From Roseovarius amoyensis (lineage in GTDB: Bacteria; Pseudomonadota; Alphaproteobacteria; Rhodobacterales; Rhodobacteraceae): a DNA stretch of 64,000 nt. Below the pieces are notes generated by a model, which worked only from the letters and a program-made list of their open reading frames with translations, searched no databases and was not told the DNA's origin. The stretch lies in contig NZ_QITQ01000013.1 in assembly GCF_003260265.1 (NCBI RefSeq), forward strand, positions 1 to 64,000. The letters run 5' to 3'. The first letter of the stretch is position 1, and each line of letters begins with the position of its first letter. A program made the position numbers and the translations under genes. Below, in pieces: positions 18,401-61,912 of this stretch.

Positions 18401-19798
18401 TCAGCCCGTGCTTTCCGCGTCGGCCTGGCGCGACCCCTTCTGTCCGGTCACGACCCCCAGCGATTTCAGCTTGCGGTGCAGCGCGCTGCGCTCCATCCCG
18501 ACGAATTCGGCGGTGCGGCTGATATTGCCGCCGAAACGGTTGATCTGGGTGACGAGGTATTCGCGTTCGAACGCCTCGCGCGCCTCGCGCAGGGGCAGTG
18601 TCGCCACCGTGCCCGACAGCACCACGCGCCCATCCTCGGCCGGCGCCCCGGTTTCGCCCGGCAGTTCGCGCGCCTCGATCTCGCCGGTGGAGTCGCCCAG
18701 GATCAGCACCCGTTCGATGACGTTTCTCAACTGGCGCACATTCCCCGGCCAGTTCATCGTTTGCAGCAACGCCGCCGCCTCTTCGCTCAGCGGGCGCAGG
18801 GGCAGGCCCTGTTCGCGGTTGAGCTGCTCGATGAAATGTTCCGCCAGCGTGGGGATGTCCTCGCGCCGTTCCTCCAGGCCCGGCACGGCGATCGGCACCA
18901 CGTTCAGGCGGTGAAACAGTTCGCGCCGGAAATTCCCGGCCCCGATCTCGGCCTCAAGGTCGCGGTTGGTGGACGAAATCACCCGCAGATCGACCTGCAC
19001 CTTGTCGGCTCCGCCCACCCGCAGAAAGGTCTGATCCACCAGCACCCGCAAGATTTTCGACTGCGTGCCCGGCGGCATATCCGCCACCTCGTCGAAATAG
19101 ATCACCCCGCCATTGGCCTCTTCCAGCAGGCCCGGCTCGACACCGCGTTCTTCGCTTTCGCGGCCGAACAGCACCTCTTCCATGCGGTCCGGCTCTATCG
19201 AGGCGCAGGCGACCGACACGAACGGCCCGTCGGCCCGGTTCGAACGGGCGTGGATGTACCGCGCCGCCAGTTCCTTGCCACAGCCCGACGCGCCGGTCAG
19301 CATCACCCGGCCGTTGGACTTGGTCACCTTGTCGAGCTGCCCCACCAGCATGCGAAAGGCGGGGCTTTCGCCCAGCATCTCGGCCGGCTCGGCGCCGCGC
19401 CGCTTGAGCGCGATGTTTTCGCGCCGCAGGCGGCTGGTTTCCATCGCCCGGCGGATGACCACCAGCAACTGGTCGATGTTGAAGGGCTTTTCGATAAAGT
19501 CATAGGCGCCCTGCTTGATCGCCGCGACGGCGATCTCGATGTTGCCATGCCCCGAGATGATGACGACCGGTACATCCGGGTAGTCGCGCTTGACGATCTT
19601 GAGGATGTCGATGCCATCCATGGTGCTGTCTTTCAGCCAGATATCGAGGATCAGCATCCCCGGTGGCTCGGCCGCGATGGCGGCCATGCATTCCTCCGAA
19701 CTGCCCGCAAGGCGGGTGGTAAAGCCCTCGTCCTCCAGGATGTCCGAGATCAGTTCCCGGATGTCCCGTTCGTCGTCGACGATCAGAATATCGCTCAT
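18401..19798 (-). CDS. ntrX: Response regulator NtrX
   Basis: A 465-residue response regulator of the NtrC superfamily. The receiver domain has phospho-acceptor D52 (MLILDIWLKD), the AAA+ domain has Walker A GASGCGKE at 169-176, and a Fis-type helix-turn-helix closes the protein (GGNISRTAEFVGMERSALHRKLKSLG). The GAFTGA sigma-54 contact loop is missing (FGRESEERGVEPGLLEEA in its place), as in other alphaproteobacterial NtrX proteins. It pairs with NtrY, 7 bases upstream, and regulates nitrogen, envelope or redox responses in relatives. Confidence 0.94.
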   Translation of the reverse strand: MSDILIVDDERDIRELISDILEDEGFTTRLAGSSEECMAAIAAEPPGMLILDIWLKDSTMDGIDILKIVKRDYPDVPVVIISGHGNIEIAVAAIKQGAYDFIEKPFNIDQLLVVIRRAMETSRLRRENIALKRRGAEPAEMLGESPAFRMLVGQLDKVTKSNGRVMLTGASGCGKELAARYIHARSNRADGPFVSVACASIEPDRMEEVLFGRESEERGVEPGLLEEANGGVIYFDEVADMPPGTQSKILRVLVDQTFLRVGGADKVQVDLRVISSTNRDLEAEIGAGNFRRELFHRLNVVPIAVPGLEERREDIPTLAEHFIEQLNREQGLPLRPLSEEAAALLQTMNWPGNVRQLRNVIERVLILGDSTGEIEARELPGETGAPAEDGRVVLSGTVATLPLREAREAFEREYLVTQINRFGGNISRTAEFVGMERSALHRKLKSLGVVTGQKGSRQADAESTG

Positions 19799-56068: not shown

Positions 56069-57022
56069 ATGAAAGACGTATTGCAGCCCCCTGCCCCCGA
56101 GCCCAGGTTCCGCGATCCGCTGGTCACCGCCGACGGGCAGGCGCGTGCGCGCGTGGCGCTGACCCGGCCCGAAACCCTGTGGTTCAACACCGGGACGCTG
56201 TGCAACATCACCTGCGCCAACTGCTATATCGAAAGCTCGCCCGAAAATGACCGGCTGGTCTATATCACCGAGGCCGAGATGAACGATTACCTCGACCAGG
56301 CGCAAACGCGCGGCTGGCCGCTGCGCGAGGTGGGCTTTACCGGCGGCGAGCCGTTCATGAACCCCCAGATGCCGGCGATGGCACGCAGCGCGCTGGAACG
56401 CGGCCTTGAGGCGCTGATTCTCACCAACGCCATGCGCCCGATGATGCGCCCCAGGGTCAGAGACGCGCTGGCACAGCTCGGGGCCGAGTTCGGCGACCGA
56501 ATGGTGCTGCGGGTGTCTCTCGATCACTGGTCGGAGGCGCACCACGACAGCGAACGCGGCAAGGGCAGCTTTGCCATCACGCTGGAGGGGATGCGCTGGC
56601 TGCGCGATGCGGGCATCCGCACCACCGTCGCCGGCCGCACCCTGTGGGGCGAGAGCGAGGCAGAGGCGCGCGCGGGCTATGCGAAGCTGTATGCCGAGCA
56701 CGGCTTTGCCATCGACGCGAACGACCCCTCGCAAACGGTGCTCTTTCCCGAGATGGACGAGGCCGCCGACGTGCCGGAGATCACCAGCAGTTGCTGGGGC
56801 ATCCTGGGCAAGTCGCCCGATGACGTGATGTGCGCCTCGTCGCGGATGGTGGTCAAGCGGCGCGGGGCAGACCGGCCAGCAGTGGTGGCCTGCACGCTGC
56901 TGCCTTATGAGCCCGAATTCGAGCTCGGGACCACCCTGGCCGAGGCCGAGGGTGAGGTGGCGCTCAACCATCCCCATTGCGCGCGGTTCTGCGTGCTGGG
57001 CGGGGCCAGCTGCGGGGGTTGA
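56069..57022 (+). CDS. Radical SAM protein of unknown substrate
   Basis: A 317-residue radical SAM enzyme: CX3CX2C cluster motif CNITCANC with C45, C49 and C52, SAM-binding GGEP near 92, and a C-terminal set of further cysteines (SSCWG, MCASS, ACTLL, HCARFCVLGGASCGG) that could ligate a second cluster as in SPASM/twitch proteins. Pathway unknown. Stands alone, divergent from zwf and convergent with yidD; no peptide substrate gene is seen next to it. Confidence 0.85.
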   Translation: MKDVLQPPAPEPRFRDPLVTADGQARARVALTRPETLWFNTGTLCNITCANCYIESSPENDRLVYITEAEMNDYLDQAQTRGWPLREVGFTGGEPFMNPQMPAMARSALERGLEALILTNAMRPMMRPRVRDALAQLGAEFGDRMVLRVSLDHWSEAHHDSERGKGSFAITLEGMRWLRDAGIRTTVAGRTLWGESEAEARAGYAKLYAEHGFAIDANDPSQTVLFPEMDEAADVPEITSSCWGILGKSPDDVMCASSRMVVKRRGADRPAVVACTLLPYEPEFELGTTLAEAEGEVALNHPHCARFCVLGGASCGG

Positions 57023-57891: not shown

Positions 57892-58208
57892 CGCTCAAGC
57901 TCTCCGGTCTTGCGGCCCGGCGCGCGAGTGATTGGGAATCGCACGCCCCGGCCGATAATGTCTCGAAGCCCGGTCTATAGATGCCGCGCGGGGGCAAGTC
58001 AAACGTCAAACCCGTGTTACGGCCCCGATCCGCGATGAATGCATCACGCGCTGGACGGTATCAGGCGCAAATGTTTCAAAACCGGACAGTTGCCCGCGCC
58101 TTAGGGCCGAAACCATGGCAGTTTCATCACCCCTCATCACCCCCACGTGAAACCCCTAGCCCGGCACGCCCTGATCGCGCATTTAGGATGGGCGACAAAG
58201 TATATGAC
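57892..58208. other. Divergent regulatory region, rpmH and TVP38 gene
   Basis: About 317 bases without a gene. It holds the rpmH promoter at 57974-58002 and a leader of about 75 bases for that operon. Rightward, no clear promoter for the TVP38 gene is visible. Confidence 0.5.
57974..58002 (-). promoter_or_regulatory. Near-consensus sigma-70 promoter of rpmH-rnpA-yidD
   Basis: On the minus strand TTGACT (58002-57997), 17-base spacer, TATAGA (57979-57974); expected start near 57967, 76 bases before the rpmH ATG. Confidence 0.7.
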
Positions 58209-58958
58209 ATGAATCCGGATCAAGACATGAACCACGCGAACGCAACACCCAGGGCACGGTATGCCCGCCACCTGCCGCTGGCGGTGATCGCCTGCGTGGC
58301 CATCGCAGGCGCGATTTTGCTGGGCGACATGGTCAGCTTTGACACCCTACGCACACACCGCGAGGCGCTGATGGCGTTTCGAGATGGCCATCTGGGCGTG
58401 CTCACGCTGGCCTTTGTCGTGGTCTATTTCGGTATCGTCGCCTTTTCACTGCCCGGCGGCGCCGTGGCCTCTGTCACCGGCGGGTTCCTGTTCGGGCTGA
58501 TGCTGGGCACGCTGCTTAACCTCGCGGGGGCGTCGCTGGGCGCAATTGCCATCTTTGCCGCCGCCCGCATGGGGCTGGGGCGAATGCTGGCCACGCGGAT
58601 CGAGGCGTCGGACGGCACGCTCAAGCGCATCAAGGATGGTCTGCTCGAACACGAGGTCAGCGTTCTGCTGCTGATGCGCCTCATCCCTATCGTGCCGTTC
58701 TTCGTGGCCAATCTGCTGCCCGCGCTGGTTGGGGTGCGGTTCTTCAACTACGCATGGACCACGGTTCTGGGCATCGTTCCCGGCACGCTGGTCTATGCAT
58801 GGGTTGGCGTCGGCCTGGGCGAGGTGTTCGATCGGGGTGAAGACCCCGATCTTTCCTTGCTGTGGGAGCCACAGATCATCGCCCCGATCCTGGGGCTTTG
58901 CGTGCTGGCCGCGTTGCCGATTCTGGTACGCAAGCTGCGCGCCAAAAAGGTCGCCTGA
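58209..58958 (+). CDS. TVP38/TMEM64 (VTT domain) membrane protein
   Basis: A 249-residue inner-membrane protein of the DedA-like VTT superfamily. The N-terminal helix is about 20-40; the conserved core is SLPGGAVASVTGGFLFGLMLG and LLLMRLIPIVPFFVANLLPALVGVRFFNYAWTTVLG, the re-entrant-loop signature. Proteins of this type move lipids or act in membrane homeostasis. Start uncertain: ATGs at 58188, 58209 and 58227 are in frame, none with a clear ribosome binding site. The next gene starts 2 bases after the stop; fusions of TVP38 with such an oxidoreductase exist, as I recall. Confidence 0.87.
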   Translation: MNPDQDMNHANATPRARYARHLPLAVIACVAIAGAILLGDMVSFDTLRTHREALMAFRDGHLGVLTLAFVVVYFGIVAFSLPGGAVASVTGGFLFGLMLGTLLNLAGASLGAIAIFAAARMGLGRMLATRIEASDGTLKRIKDGLLEHEVSVLLLMRLIPIVPFFVANLLPALVGVRFFNYAWTTVLGIVPGTLVYAWVGVGLGEVFDRGEDPDLSLLWEPQIIAPILGLCVLAALPILVRKLRAKKVA

Positions 58959-58960
58959 AC

Positions 58961-60379
58961 ATGGAAAGACTGAAAACCGACCTGCTGGTCATCGGCGCCG
59001 GCTCCGGCGGGCTGTCGGTTGCGGCGGGCGCGGTGCAGATGGGCGCACGGGTAGTGCTGCTTGAGGGCGGCAGGATGGGGGGCGATTGCCTCAATTACGG
59101 CTGCGTGCCCTCCAAGGCGCTGCTGGCGGCGGCGCATGCTGCCCACGCCCACACCCACGCCGCCCGTTTCGGCCTGACCGCCACAGCGCCAAAGGTGGAT
59201 TTCGCGGCCGTCAAGGACCACGTCGCCGGCGTGGTGGCCCAGATCGCGCCCCATGACAGCGAAGAACGTTTTGCAGGGCTGGGCGTGCGGGTGATCCGCG
59301 AATATGGCCGCTTCGTCTCAAACACCGAGGTCGAGGCCGGCCAATATCGCATCACCGCCCGGCGTATCGTCATCGCCACCGGCTCGTCACCACTGATCCC
59401 GCCGATACCGGGGCTGGACACGGTACCCTTCCTGACCAACGAAACCCTGTTCGACCTGCGCGAGCGCCCCGAACACCTGCTGATCATCGGCGGCGGGCCC
59501 ATCGGCATCGAGATGGCGCAGGCCCACAGGCGGCTGGGCTGCCGGGTGACGGTGATCGAGGGCGCGCGCGCCCTCGGCCAGGATGACCCGGAGATGGCCG
59601 CCGTGGTGCTGAAACGTCTGCGCAATGAGGGTGTCGAGATTGTCGAAGAGGCCCCGGCGGCGCAGGTCAGCGGCACCCCCGGCGCCATCAAGATCGATAC
59701 CAAGGACGGGCGCAGCTTTGCTGGCACGCATCTGCTGGTCGCGGTGGGGCGGCGGGCCAATACCGACAAGCTGAACCTCGACGCCGCCGAGATAGAAACC
59801 ACGAAAACCGGCATCCGGGTCGATGCCGGAATGCGCACCACCAACCGGCGGGTCTATGCCATCGGCGATGTCGCCGGGGGCGCGCAGTTCACCCACCTGG
59901 CCGGCTATCAGGCCGGGGTGATCCTGCGCCCGATGCTGTTCGGCCTGCCGGCAAAGACCAGCGGCGATCACATCCCCCGCGTTACCTATACCGACCCCGA
60001 ACTGGCGCAGGTCGGCCTGACCGAACAGCAGGCGCGCGCCCGGTACGGCGACCGGCTGGAGGTGGTGCGCGTCGACCTCTCCGCCATCGACCGCGCCGTG
60101 GCCACGCATGAAACCGACGGATTCATCAAGGTGATGGTGGTGCGCGGCCGCCCGGTCGGGGCCTCGATCGTGGGTGCAGGCGCGGGCGAACAGATCGCGC
60201 TTTGGGCGCTGGCGATCGCGGCTGGACTGAAAATGCGTCACGTCGCCGGGATGGTCGCGCCCTACCCCACGGTCGGAGAAATTGGCAAACGTGCAGCAGG
60301 GGCCTATTTCTCGCCACGTCTGTTTGATAATCCTAGAGTCAGAAAAATCGTGGGGCTGGTGCAACGCTGGCTTCCGTAA
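58961..60379 (+). CDS. Class I pyridine nucleotide-disulfide oxidoreductase (TVP38-linked)
   Basis: A 472-residue flavoprotein related to dihydrolipoamide dehydrogenase and mercuric reductase. FAD motif GAGSGGLSVAAG, redox-active CX4C pair C43 and C48 in GGDCLNYGCVPSK, NAD(P) motif GGGPIGIEMAQAHRRLG, FAD-contact YAIGDVAGG. The C-terminal dimer loop reads YPTVGEIGKR where dihydrolipoamide dehydrogenase has HPTxxE, so the His of the catalytic His-Glu dyad is replaced by Tyr; there is no mercury-binding CC at the end. The electron acceptor is unknown. Located between the TVP38 gene and a kinase gene (11-base gap). Confidence 0.9.
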   Translation: MERLKTDLLVIGAGSGGLSVAAGAVQMGARVVLLEGGRMGGDCLNYGCVPSKALLAAAHAAHAHTHAARFGLTATAPKVDFAAVKDHVAGVVAQIAPHDSEERFAGLGVRVIREYGRFVSNTEVEAGQYRITARRIVIATGSSPLIPPIPGLDTVPFLTNETLFDLRERPEHLLIIGGGPIGIEMAQAHRRLGCRVTVIEGARALGQDDPEMAAVVLKRLRNEGVEIVEEAPAAQVSGTPGAIKIDTKDGRSFAGTHLLVAVGRRANTDKLNLDAAEIETTKTGIRVDAGMRTTNRRVYAIGDVAGGAQFTHLAGYQAGVILRPMLFGLPAKTSGDHIPRVTYTDPELAQVGLTEQQARARYGDRLEVVRVDLSAIDRAVATHETDGFIKVMVVRGRPVGASIVGAGAGEQIALWALAIAAGLKMRHVAGMVAPYPTVGEIGKRAAGAYFSPRLFDNPRVRKIVGLVQRWLP

Positions 60380-60390
60380 GTGGGCGGCGA

Positions 60391-61776
60391 ATGCGGTTTC
60401 TGAAATCTTTATCGGGACGGTTTCTGGTTCTGACGGCGGTTTTCGTGATGCTGGCCGAGGTGCTGATCTTTGTCCCCTCGGTCGCGCGTTTTCGCGAAGA
60501 CTTCCTGATGTCGCGCCTCGAACGCGCGCAGATCGCGGCACTGGCGCTGCTGGCGAACGAGGATATCAGCGCCGAGCTGCAAGAGGAACTGCTGCTCAAT
60601 GCCGGGGTCTTCAACATCGTGCTGCGGCGCGATGCGGCGCGCCAGCTGGTGCTGTCCTCGCCCCTGCCCCAGCCGGTCAGCGCCACCTTCGATCTGCGCA
60701 ATGCCTCGGCGCTGGTGCTGATCCGCGACGCGCTGGCGCGCCTGACCGACCCCGAACCGCAGGTGATCCGCGTGATCGGCGTGCCCTCGCGCATGGCCGG
60801 GCTGCTGATCGAGATCACGCTGGAAACCGAACCGCTGCGCATGGCGATGCTGGATTACGGGTTTCGCATCCTGATGCTGTCGCTGGTGATTTCGGTAATC
60901 ACCGCAGGGCTGCTGTATCTCGCGGTGCGCGCCCTGCTGGTGCGCCCGATCAGCCGCGTGGTCGGGCACATGCAATCCTATGCCGCCGCCCCCGAGGATG
61001 CGCGCCGGGTGATCGTGCCCTCGGCCGGCGTGACCGAACTGCGCGAGGCCGAAGAGGCGCTGAAATCGCTGCAGACCCAGTTGACCGGGGCGCTGAAACA
61101 ACGCGAAAGGCTGGCCCAGCTTGGCGGCGCGGTGGCCAGGGTCAGCCATGATCTGCGCAACATCCTGACCACGGCGCAGCTTTTCACCGACCGGATCGAG
61201 ACCAGCGACGACCCCAAGGTCCAACGCATGGCGCCCAAGCTGGTGGGTTCGATCAGCCGCGCGGTGCATCTGTGCGAAAGCACGCTGGCCTTCGGCCGGG
61301 CCGAGGAACCGGCTGCAAGGCTGGAACGCTTTGCTCTCGCCCCGTTGGTCGAAGAGGTGATCGAGAGCGAACGCATGGCAATCGAGGCCGAAGCCGATAT
61401 CCAATTCGCCAGCGACATCCCCGATGGCCAGAACGTCCGCGCCGACCGCGAACAGCTATACCGGGTGCTGACCAACCTCTTGCGCAACGCCCGCCAGGCC
61501 ATCGCCGACGCCGGCAAGAGCGGCGCCATCGACGTCAGCGCGCGGGAATCGAACGGTACCTGCATCATCACCGTCGCCGACACCGGCCCCGGCCTGCCGC
61601 CCAAGGCGCGCGAGAACCTCTTTCGCCCGTTCCAGGGCGCGGCCAGCCGCGGCGGCAGCGGGTTGGGCCTGTCGATCGCCCAAGAACTGGTGCGCGGCCA
61701 CGGCGGCGACCTGACGCTGGAGCGCAGCAACGCCACCGGCACCGTGTTCTCGATCTGTCTGCCCGCCGGAGAGTGA
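60391..61776 (+). CDS. Orphan membrane sensor histidine kinase
   Basis: A 461-residue sensor kinase. Two transmembrane helices (about 10-30 and 158-180) enclose a periplasmic sensor of about 125 residues; a HAMP linker, HisKA with H253 (VSHDLRNIL), and HATPase_c with NLLRNARQA, DTGPGLPP and GGSGLGLSIA follow. No response regulator gene is next to it. It is the third gene of the TVP38-oxidoreductase cluster, so it may sense envelope or redox state. Confidence 0.92.
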   Translation: MRFLKSLSGRFLVLTAVFVMLAEVLIFVPSVARFREDFLMSRLERAQIAALALLANEDISAELQEELLLNAGVFNIVLRRDAARQLVLSSPLPQPVSATFDLRNASALVLIRDALARLTDPEPQVIRVIGVPSRMAGLLIEITLETEPLRMAMLDYGFRILMLSLVISVITAGLLYLAVRALLVRPISRVVGHMQSYAAAPEDARRVIVPSAGVTELREAEEALKSLQTQLTGALKQRERLAQLGGAVARVSHDLRNILTTAQLFTDRIETSDDPKVQRMAPKLVGSISRAVHLCESTLAFGRAEEPAARLERFALAPLVEEVIESERMAIEAEADIQFASDIPDGQNVRADREQLYRVLTNLLRNARQAIADAGKSGAIDVSARESNGTCIITVADTGPGLPPKARENLFRPFQGAASRGGSGLGLSIAQELVRGHGGDLTLERSNATGTVFSICLPAGE

Positions 61777-61835: not shown

Positions 61836-61912
61836 GGACCGATAGCTCAGCTGGATAGAGTACCTGACTACGAATCAGGGGGTCGGGGGTTCGAATCCTC
61901 CTCGGTCCGCCA
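61836..61912 (+). tRNA. tRNA-Arg (anticodon ACG)
   Basis: A 77-base tRNA with GGACCGA acceptor strand, D-arm AGCTCAGCTGGATAGAGT, anticodon loop CTACGAA (ACG, read as ICG after deamination), T-arm GGTTCGAATCC and encoded CCA. Confidence 0.97.

Follow-up and report, generated by a model that had tools for sequence, protein, structure and literature searches.

What do a membrane protein of the TVP38/TMEM64 type, a flavoprotein disulfide reductase and a sensor histidine kinase have in common, that their genes should lie together? The question is posed by a locus in the 64,000-nucleotide stretch of Roseovarius amoyensis DNA analyzed here, the whole of which we call the window. We find that the three genes form an operon, that the kinase is the orthologue of CenK, and that a box of the type bound by the response regulator CenR precedes the genes. 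The reading that we favor, with a probability of about 0.65, is that TVP38 and the reductase, which is of the type named MerA1 in S. meliloti, constitute an arm of the CenKR envelope response that serves the upkeep of membrane lipids and thiols, and not the handling of mercury.

The three genes form a conserved operon

The first gene (58209-58958, forward strand) encodes a protein of 249 amino acids of the SMc01718 type. It has hydrophobic segments and matches the Pfam family VTT_dom with 68.1 bits against a cut-off of 33.9, and is thus a member of that family. The FAD/NAD(P)-dependent disulfide reductase follows at 58961-60379 on the forward strand (472 amino acids; Pyr_redox_2 209.2 bits, Pyr_redox_dim 89.9 bits), and corresponds to merA1 of S. 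meliloti. The third gene, at 60391-61776 on the forward strand, encodes the membrane sensor histidine kinase (461 amino acids; HisKA 31.9 bits, HATPase_c 85.9 bits). The intergenic gaps are just 2 and 11 bases, from which a single operon had been proposed in the initial annotation of the window. The order is kept in relatives, and the operon joining the three genes is real. The divergent rpmH gene lies upstream of TVP38.

We took the best 80 of 537 relatives found as a close set of named loci, to which the window was added in some counts to give 81. Gene calls in all the locus surveys come from a simple open reading frame picker and not from annotation. By their titles the close loci are from Rhodobacterales-type organisms except for two, L084 (an alphaproteobacterial metagenome-assembled genome) and L120 (one titled Cytophagaceae). 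All three genes are present in the same order with short gaps in 79 of the 80, the exception being L133, which has no kinase. In L123 only the start of the kinase is present, at the end of a contig, and in L137 TVP38 was matched in two pieces. Since order and spacing are kept to this extent, the arrangement is not due to chance. Within the genus, kinase and reductase are each found in 34 of 35 genomes (the reductase only partially in G002 and G015) and by their listed places are adjacent on one contig in all 34. Both are missing from G033, which is 72% complete.

Across the class, the kinase is present in 116 of 241 genomes and 89 of 191 genera. The reductase accompanies it in 101 of the 116, and is found in 31 of the 125 other genomes, counts that are not corrected for kinship. 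We examined 97 class kinase loci, comprising 96 of the 116 kinase-bearing genomes plus G059 from the set of relatives; the 20 outside include the genome of the window itself. A script rule divided them into 53 with TVP38, reductase and kinase, nine with TVP38 and kinase, eight with reductase and kinase, and 27 with the kinase alone. Two loci, L068 and L070, contain all three genes together with an insert, and were counted as reductase-kinase and kinase-alone respectively. The neighborhood survey suggested by the initial annotation therefore finds the trio together in nearly all of the close loci and in 53 of the 97 class loci.

The kinase is the orthologue of CenK

The kinase is 44% identical over 453 residues to the S. 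meliloti CenK gene product. In S. meliloti Ak57 (CP090106.1, locus L387) rpmH is followed by genes for TVP38, an NAD(P)/FAD oxidoreductase and a kinase. This kinase gene has 507 codons, and I282 (ATC), M435 (ATG), G459 (GGC) and I488 (ATA) are the published wild-type codons at all four positions checked. SMc01716 of S. meliloti is CenK, with 507 codons, and its revertant mutations are listed with the wild-type codons (PMC9561847). Moreover mcpT, SMc01718 (TVP38/TMEM64), merA1 and SMc01716 are listed as one putative operon (PMC12445080, Table 1). Because the third gene of the S. meliloti trio fits SMc01716 in both length and codons, the kinase is CenK. The record CP090106.1 is a 3.7 Mb S. meliloti sequence labelled pSymB; it bears rpmH, yidC, cenK and a CenR orthologue, and is therefore probably a mislabelled chromosome.

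The protein is a two-helix membrane protein with HisKA and HATPase_c domains, and HAMP is not among its Pfam matches at E = 0.001. Met194 comes after the second membrane helix, and the R. sphaeroides protein has been truncated at M195, behind its own second helix (PMC9275681). We aligned 109 of 118 listed kinases, matches over 430 residues or fewer being dropped. The phospho-acceptor His253 (codon 61147-61149, forward strand) is His in all 109. Residues 31-158 (60481-60864, forward strand) are predicted to form a periplasmic sensor domain, for which the AlphaFold2 model has a mean pLDDT (predicted local distance difference test score) of 93. The model gave no Foldseek match under E = 0.1. With VIA-align, Z is at most 4.3 against Cache-type and comparable sensor domains, a value that common arrangements also reach, and the modeled domain appears only weakly similar to known folds.

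The CenK-CenR system has been described in R. sphaeroides (RSP_1056/RSP_0847), S. meliloti (SMc01716/SMc03820) and Caulobacter (CCNA_00564/CCNA_03859). The kinase studied here is orthologous, with cenR at a separate locus and the phospho-site positions the same. In R. sphaeroides CenK is RSP_1056, which has no regulator gene nearby, and it phosphorylates CenR, RSP_0847 (PMC9275681). RSP_1057 and RSP_1058 are both classed under 'Detoxification' and belong to the RpoHII and RpoHI regulons, as does RSP_0847 (PMC3441632). Taken with the synteny, this suggests that the two encode the reductase and TVP38. When RSP_1056 was hit by a transposon the fatty-acid content rose 2.7-fold, although a second mutation was not excluded by the authors (PMC5442454). 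In the excerpts of the published CenK-CenR accounts we found no mention of TVP38 and merA1 as operon partners, and among the papers available to a word-match search none joins CenK with TVP38, TMEM64, merA1 or mercuric reductase. The CenR-type box before the operon is proposed here.

The response regulator CenR is encoded elsewhere

The genome has 26 receiver-domain matches (24 of them over the cut-off), and only two are on this contig, at 19454 and 23202. The kinase therefore lacks a neighboring regulator, as the initial annotation had noted, and a private response regulator close to it is excluded. The genome-wide search for a partner that had been suggested there leads to CenR at a separate locus (G000:C11:247496-248179). 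It is an unpaired OmpR-type protein of 228 amino acids, the only CenR orthologue in the genome at E = 1e-50, and has D11-D13, D51 and D56 as described for RSP_0847. CenR is found at E = 1e-50 or better in 127 of the 241 class genomes. It is present in 111 of the 116 that carry the kinase and in 16 of the 125 that do not (not corrected for kinship). Cereibacter azotoformans has a CenR homologue, 82.9% identical to P0004, on a plasmid of 104 kb (NZ_CP089971.1:19008-19691).

Phosphotransfer from CenK to CenR has been demonstrated with the R. sphaeroides proteins, and the regulon of CenR is a wide envelope set that includes tolQRAB, mlaC, surA, dsbC, msrA and cytochrome c maturation genes (PMC9275681). 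The proposal of a membrane redox system with its own sensor is therefore borne out in part. There is a reductase unit associated with a membrane protein, but the sensor is not its own, since the kinase is CenK and acts with a regulator encoded elsewhere that has a wide regulon. As evidence against that proposal, the initial annotation had named a cognate regulator at another locus linking the kinase to some unrelated process. Such a regulator exists, but its process is not clearly unrelated, because the regulon contains dsbC, msrA, cytochrome c maturation genes and mlaC, and because a CenR-type box precedes the unit.

A CenR-type box precedes the operon

The candidate box, TCAC-N6-GTGA, lies at 58137-58150 (no strand assigned), 58 bases before the start of TVP38, and has a matrix score of 12.7. 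The matrix was derived from the 31 CenR sites listed in Table 1 of PMC9275681, and we ran it on the 250-300 bases before each unit. Upstream sequences were dropped if shorter than 240 bases (close set), 300 bases (class trios) or 280 bases (separated units). In the 81 close upstream sequences the median best score is 12.4, compared with 6.4 in 467 controls. The pattern T[GC]A[AC]N6GTGA is present in 80 of the 81 (window included) and in five of the 467 controls; it was chosen after eight upstream sequences had been viewed, so that this Rhodobacterales-type count is not blind, and many published sites begin TCA. The strict form TGA-N8-TGA occurs in none of the 81, below shuffled sequences (4.4). 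The class loci, the separated units and the permuted matrices played no part in choosing the pattern.

We scored 49 of the 53 class trios, L197, L198, L210 and L275 having little upstream DNA. A score of 9 or more is reached by 33 of the 49, compared with 13% of 316 controls (p = 8e-14). Grouped into families, 26 of 37 have at least one locus with a box, or 23 of 37 if the lowest locus is taken. Of 60 matrices with permuted columns, none attains the observed medians (for the close set, the permuted medians were taken from 40 of 80 upstream sequences). Two trios without an adjacent rnpA also have the box, L263 (8.5 kb from rnpA) and L265. In S. meliloti TCACGCCGGCGTGA precedes TVP38 by 112 bases, with rpmH about 2.4 kb away. 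The box is therefore not simply a feature of rpmH. Where the unit is apart from cenK the box is found in 13 of 27 cases, compared with 15% of 59 controls (p = 0.002). Upstream of solitary cenK genes it occurs in two of 26 (L070 left out), no excess over the 11% of 151 controls.

By both matrix and pattern, then, the TVP38-reductase unit is preceded by a CenR site of the published type. Judged from these sequences, CenR probably binds there.

TVP38 and the reductase recur as a pair

Of 27 stretches in which the reductase gene lies apart from cenK, 19 have TVP38 no more than 3 kb from it. The pair occurs with TVP38 first (e.g. L362-L364 and L366) and with the reductase first (L365, L367-L370, L374 and L077-L079), and in L080 the two are fused in a single protein of 710 amino acids, so that the search for a TVP38-oxidoreductase fusion suggested by the initial annotation yields one. 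A re-formed gene order and a fusion are better evidence of a working unit than an inherited order. At L080:7752-10831 the fusion is followed directly by a radical SAM protein with DUF3641. We take this protein to be of the ArsS type, and the relative of the pair is perhaps in an arsenosugar context.

COG0398 DedA proteins fused to a pyridine nucleotide-disulfide oxidoreductase have already been reported, COG0398 proteins are reported to be essential in Caulobacter and Dinoroseobacter shibae, and lipid scramblase or flippase activity has been proposed for them (PMC10127716). The partners are the same two as here, and L080 is the fused form among our loci. The locus in the window differs in having separate genes, cenK after them and a CenR-type box before them. 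We place its TVP38 protein in COG0398 by the TVP38/TMEM64 name.

Might TVP38 and the reductase instead feed CenK, setting its signal through the lipid state or a cytosolic thiol and so making the operon a membrane redox sensor? The common operon would fit, as would Cys295 (61273-61275), on the second HisKA helix of CenK, which is the sole Cys column over 30% in the alignment (95 of 109). Yet no thiol relay is visible, because TVP38 lacks a conserved pair of cysteines and there is no Cys in the periplasmic domain of the kinase. The only Cys of note in TVP38 is the single Cys231, found in 54 of 80 close rows and about 4% of 68 class rows, and a relay through this protein is ruled out. Cys295 itself is missing in nine of 76 kinases linked to a reductase. 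We rejected a Cys295 switch tied to the reductase, the association being weak (p = 0.02-0.04, not corrected for kinship). Some genomes, furthermore, have CenK without the pair. We think it quite unlikely that the pair acts in this direction.

The reductase is related to MerA but lacks its mercury ligands

We aligned 146 reductases, including that of the window, dropping matches over 380 residues or fewer. Both cysteines of the redox-active CX4C motif, C43 and C48 (59087-59104, forward strand), are present in all 146. Where glutathione reductase has its catalytic His there is Tyr435 (60263-60265, forward strand; motif APYPTVGE), and Y435, P436 and E440 are invariant in the 146. An HPxxxxE-type motif marks the His-Glu dyad of dihydrolipoamide dehydrogenase and glutathione reductase; the dyad is absent here, with Y435-P436 and E440 in its place. 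In MerA a C-terminal vicinal Cys pair binds Hg(II). None of the 146 has such a pair, two having a single Cys in the tail, and the reductase has no N-terminal metal-binding domain. Glu200, after the second strand, is present in 135 of 146, and presumably indicates a preference for NADH.

These features agree with the initial annotation, which had also taken Tyr in place of His to mean that the substrate is probably new. That step fails. Tyr435 aligns with a Tyr in the structures of true MerA, 1zk7 (Tn501) and 5x1y (Lysinibacillus type), and thus reflects kinship with MerA and not novelty; as a sign of a new substrate it is ruled out. MerA shares the fold, the CX4C motif and the Tyr with the reductase. 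It differs in its C-terminal Cys pair, and 5x1y has Tyr where the reductase has Pro180. With the NCBIfam MerA model (TIGR02053) the reductase scores 357.1 bits, under the cut-off of 454.45, and so falls outside that family.

With the MerA1 proteins of S. meliloti and S. medicae the reductase shares 54% identity over 446 residues, the CX4C and APYPT motifs and the gene order. MerA1 has been published as a mercuric reductase, yet its sequence lacks the C-terminal mercury ligands of MerA. The published primers for E. medicae merA1 (PMC7840509) translate to AVAN and TYVAPYP. Since both strings occur in the S. meliloti reductase, the merA1 of the mercury literature belongs to the family studied here.

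Could the operon then be a unit for the detoxification of mercury or another soft metal, sensed by the kinase, as the name merA1 implies? The MerA-like fold and the MerA-type Tyr435 are consistent with this, as is the fused relative beside ArsS in L080. Mercury induces merA1 in a sensitive E. medicae strain in culture and in a tolerant strain in nodules (PMC7840509), while no significant response of merA1 was seen in PMC11227200. The missing C-terminal ligands argue against mercury, as do the MerA model score and the identity of the kinase as CenK. A mercury function of the reductase thus seems unlikely from its sequence, and a metal-sensing operon very improbable indeed.

Evidence that weighs against an arm of the CenKR response

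A number of observations count against the reading of TVP38-MerA1 as an arm of the CenKR response. In R. sphaeroides, chromatin immunoprecipitation sequencing gave no CenR binding upstream of cenK, the cenK transcript was unchanged in CenR mutants, and RSP_1057 and RSP_1058 are outside the 31-unit CenR regulon of that paper, as far as the excerpts go (PMC9275681). The strand that faces rpmH gives the better reading of the box in 77 of the 80 Rhodobacterales-type loci; in the class loci the better reading is on either strand. Only 14 of 30 cenR upstream sequences score 8 or more, and that of this genome scores 7.5. When six further stretches are added to the separated units, the box is present in 14 of 23 with CenK and three of 10 without, a difference with p = 0.14 by Fisher's test and 0.03 by a rank test. 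The pairing has exceptions too, in that eight of the 27 reductases that stand apart lack a TVP38 gene within 3 kb, and four genomes (G042, G195, G204 and G220) keep TVP38 beside cenK (L073, L250, L255 and L228) with the reductase alone elsewhere (L072, L376, L377 and L375 respectively). Finally, PMC7840509 and PMC11227200 take merA1 to be a basic mercury reductase.

The remaining points concern inheritance. An argB-engB-yidC-rnpA-rpmH block adjoins the trio and is kept with it, and RnpA is near the kinase in 74 of the 97 class loci, so that much of the conservation of the trio may be the inheritance of an ancient block. In addition, cenK has neither TVP38 nor the reductase beside it in 27 of the 97 class loci (26 excluding L070). 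The pair and CenK might on this account have stood side by side near rpmH since the alphaproteobacterial ancestor while serving unrelated processes. The lack of any box excess before solitary cenK would suit such a history. Ten solitary cenK genes are not near rnpA, and in eight of these the reductase is encoded elsewhere. Mere inheritance is harder to reconcile with operon spacing kept in almost all the close loci, with CenR-type boxes before TVP38-reductase units that have moved away from cenK, and with the co-occurrence of kinase and reductase noted above. We therefore consider it unlikely, though a serious alternative.

Other features near the operon

A tRNA-Arg gene lies downstream of the trio at 61836-61912. 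A DUF547-like protein precedes TVP38 in 10 of the 97 class loci (L067, L069, L194, L196, L203, L205, L216, L221, L238 and L272), identified by similarity, with a Pfam check on the L067 member only. Several loci (L068:10742-11239, L072, L079, L279 and L369) have, next to the reductase or CenK, a small protein that is probably secreted; its L068 member, the only one tested, has no Pfam match. A radical SAM protein of an unnamed family is encoded in the window at 56069-57022 on the forward strand, its best NCBIfam match being of the Rv1681 type (81 bits against a cut-off of 380). Places compared by eye, it lies within 5 kb of a MerA1-type reductase in eight of the 70 class genomes that have it, namely this genome (G000), G042, G121, G178, G181, G195, G248 and G275, and it is absent from the fetched flanks of all 80 named loci. 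A functional link with the reductase is possible.

A proposed role in envelope homeostasis

Returning to TVP38-MerA1 as an arm of the CenKR response, we can suggest how it might work. CenK would use its periplasmic domain to sense envelope state and would phosphorylate CenR, which by the evidence of the boxes would control the TVP38-MerA1 unit in addition to the envelope genes. TVP38 and the cytosolic MerA1-type flavoprotein probably cooperate at the inner membrane, where the VTT protein would move membrane lipid and the reductase would spend NADH (given Glu200) on some oxidized compound other than mercury at the inner face. The arm would thereby probably keep inner-membrane lipids and thiols in order. 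In this scheme we infer the direction of control by CenR, the substrate of the enzyme and the transport of lipid.

A further step can be offered tentatively, and we are inclined to doubt it: TVP38-MerA1 would be a class-wide redox and lipid unit under the control of CenR that closes a feedback loop, its action setting the envelope state that CenK reads. If this is correct it would provide the first candidate for the signal of CenK, and the name 'mercuric reductase' would be removed from the family.

The locus is thus conserved and mostly explained, a CenK operon whose partner pair is known. Two predictions are new, the class-wide CenR-type box before the TVP38-reductase unit and the link between the pair and CenK. 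CenKR is essential or central to envelope growth in alphaproteobacteria, and the signal of CenK is stated to be unknown (PMC9275681, legend to Fig. 7; PMC11389396). The operon partners and the boxes offer a concrete and directly testable lead to what CenK senses or controls. The same evidence points to envelope homeostasis as the place of genes that are annotated merA1 and discussed in terms of defence against mercury, and it would give the bacterial COG0398 TVP38 proteins a regulatory home.

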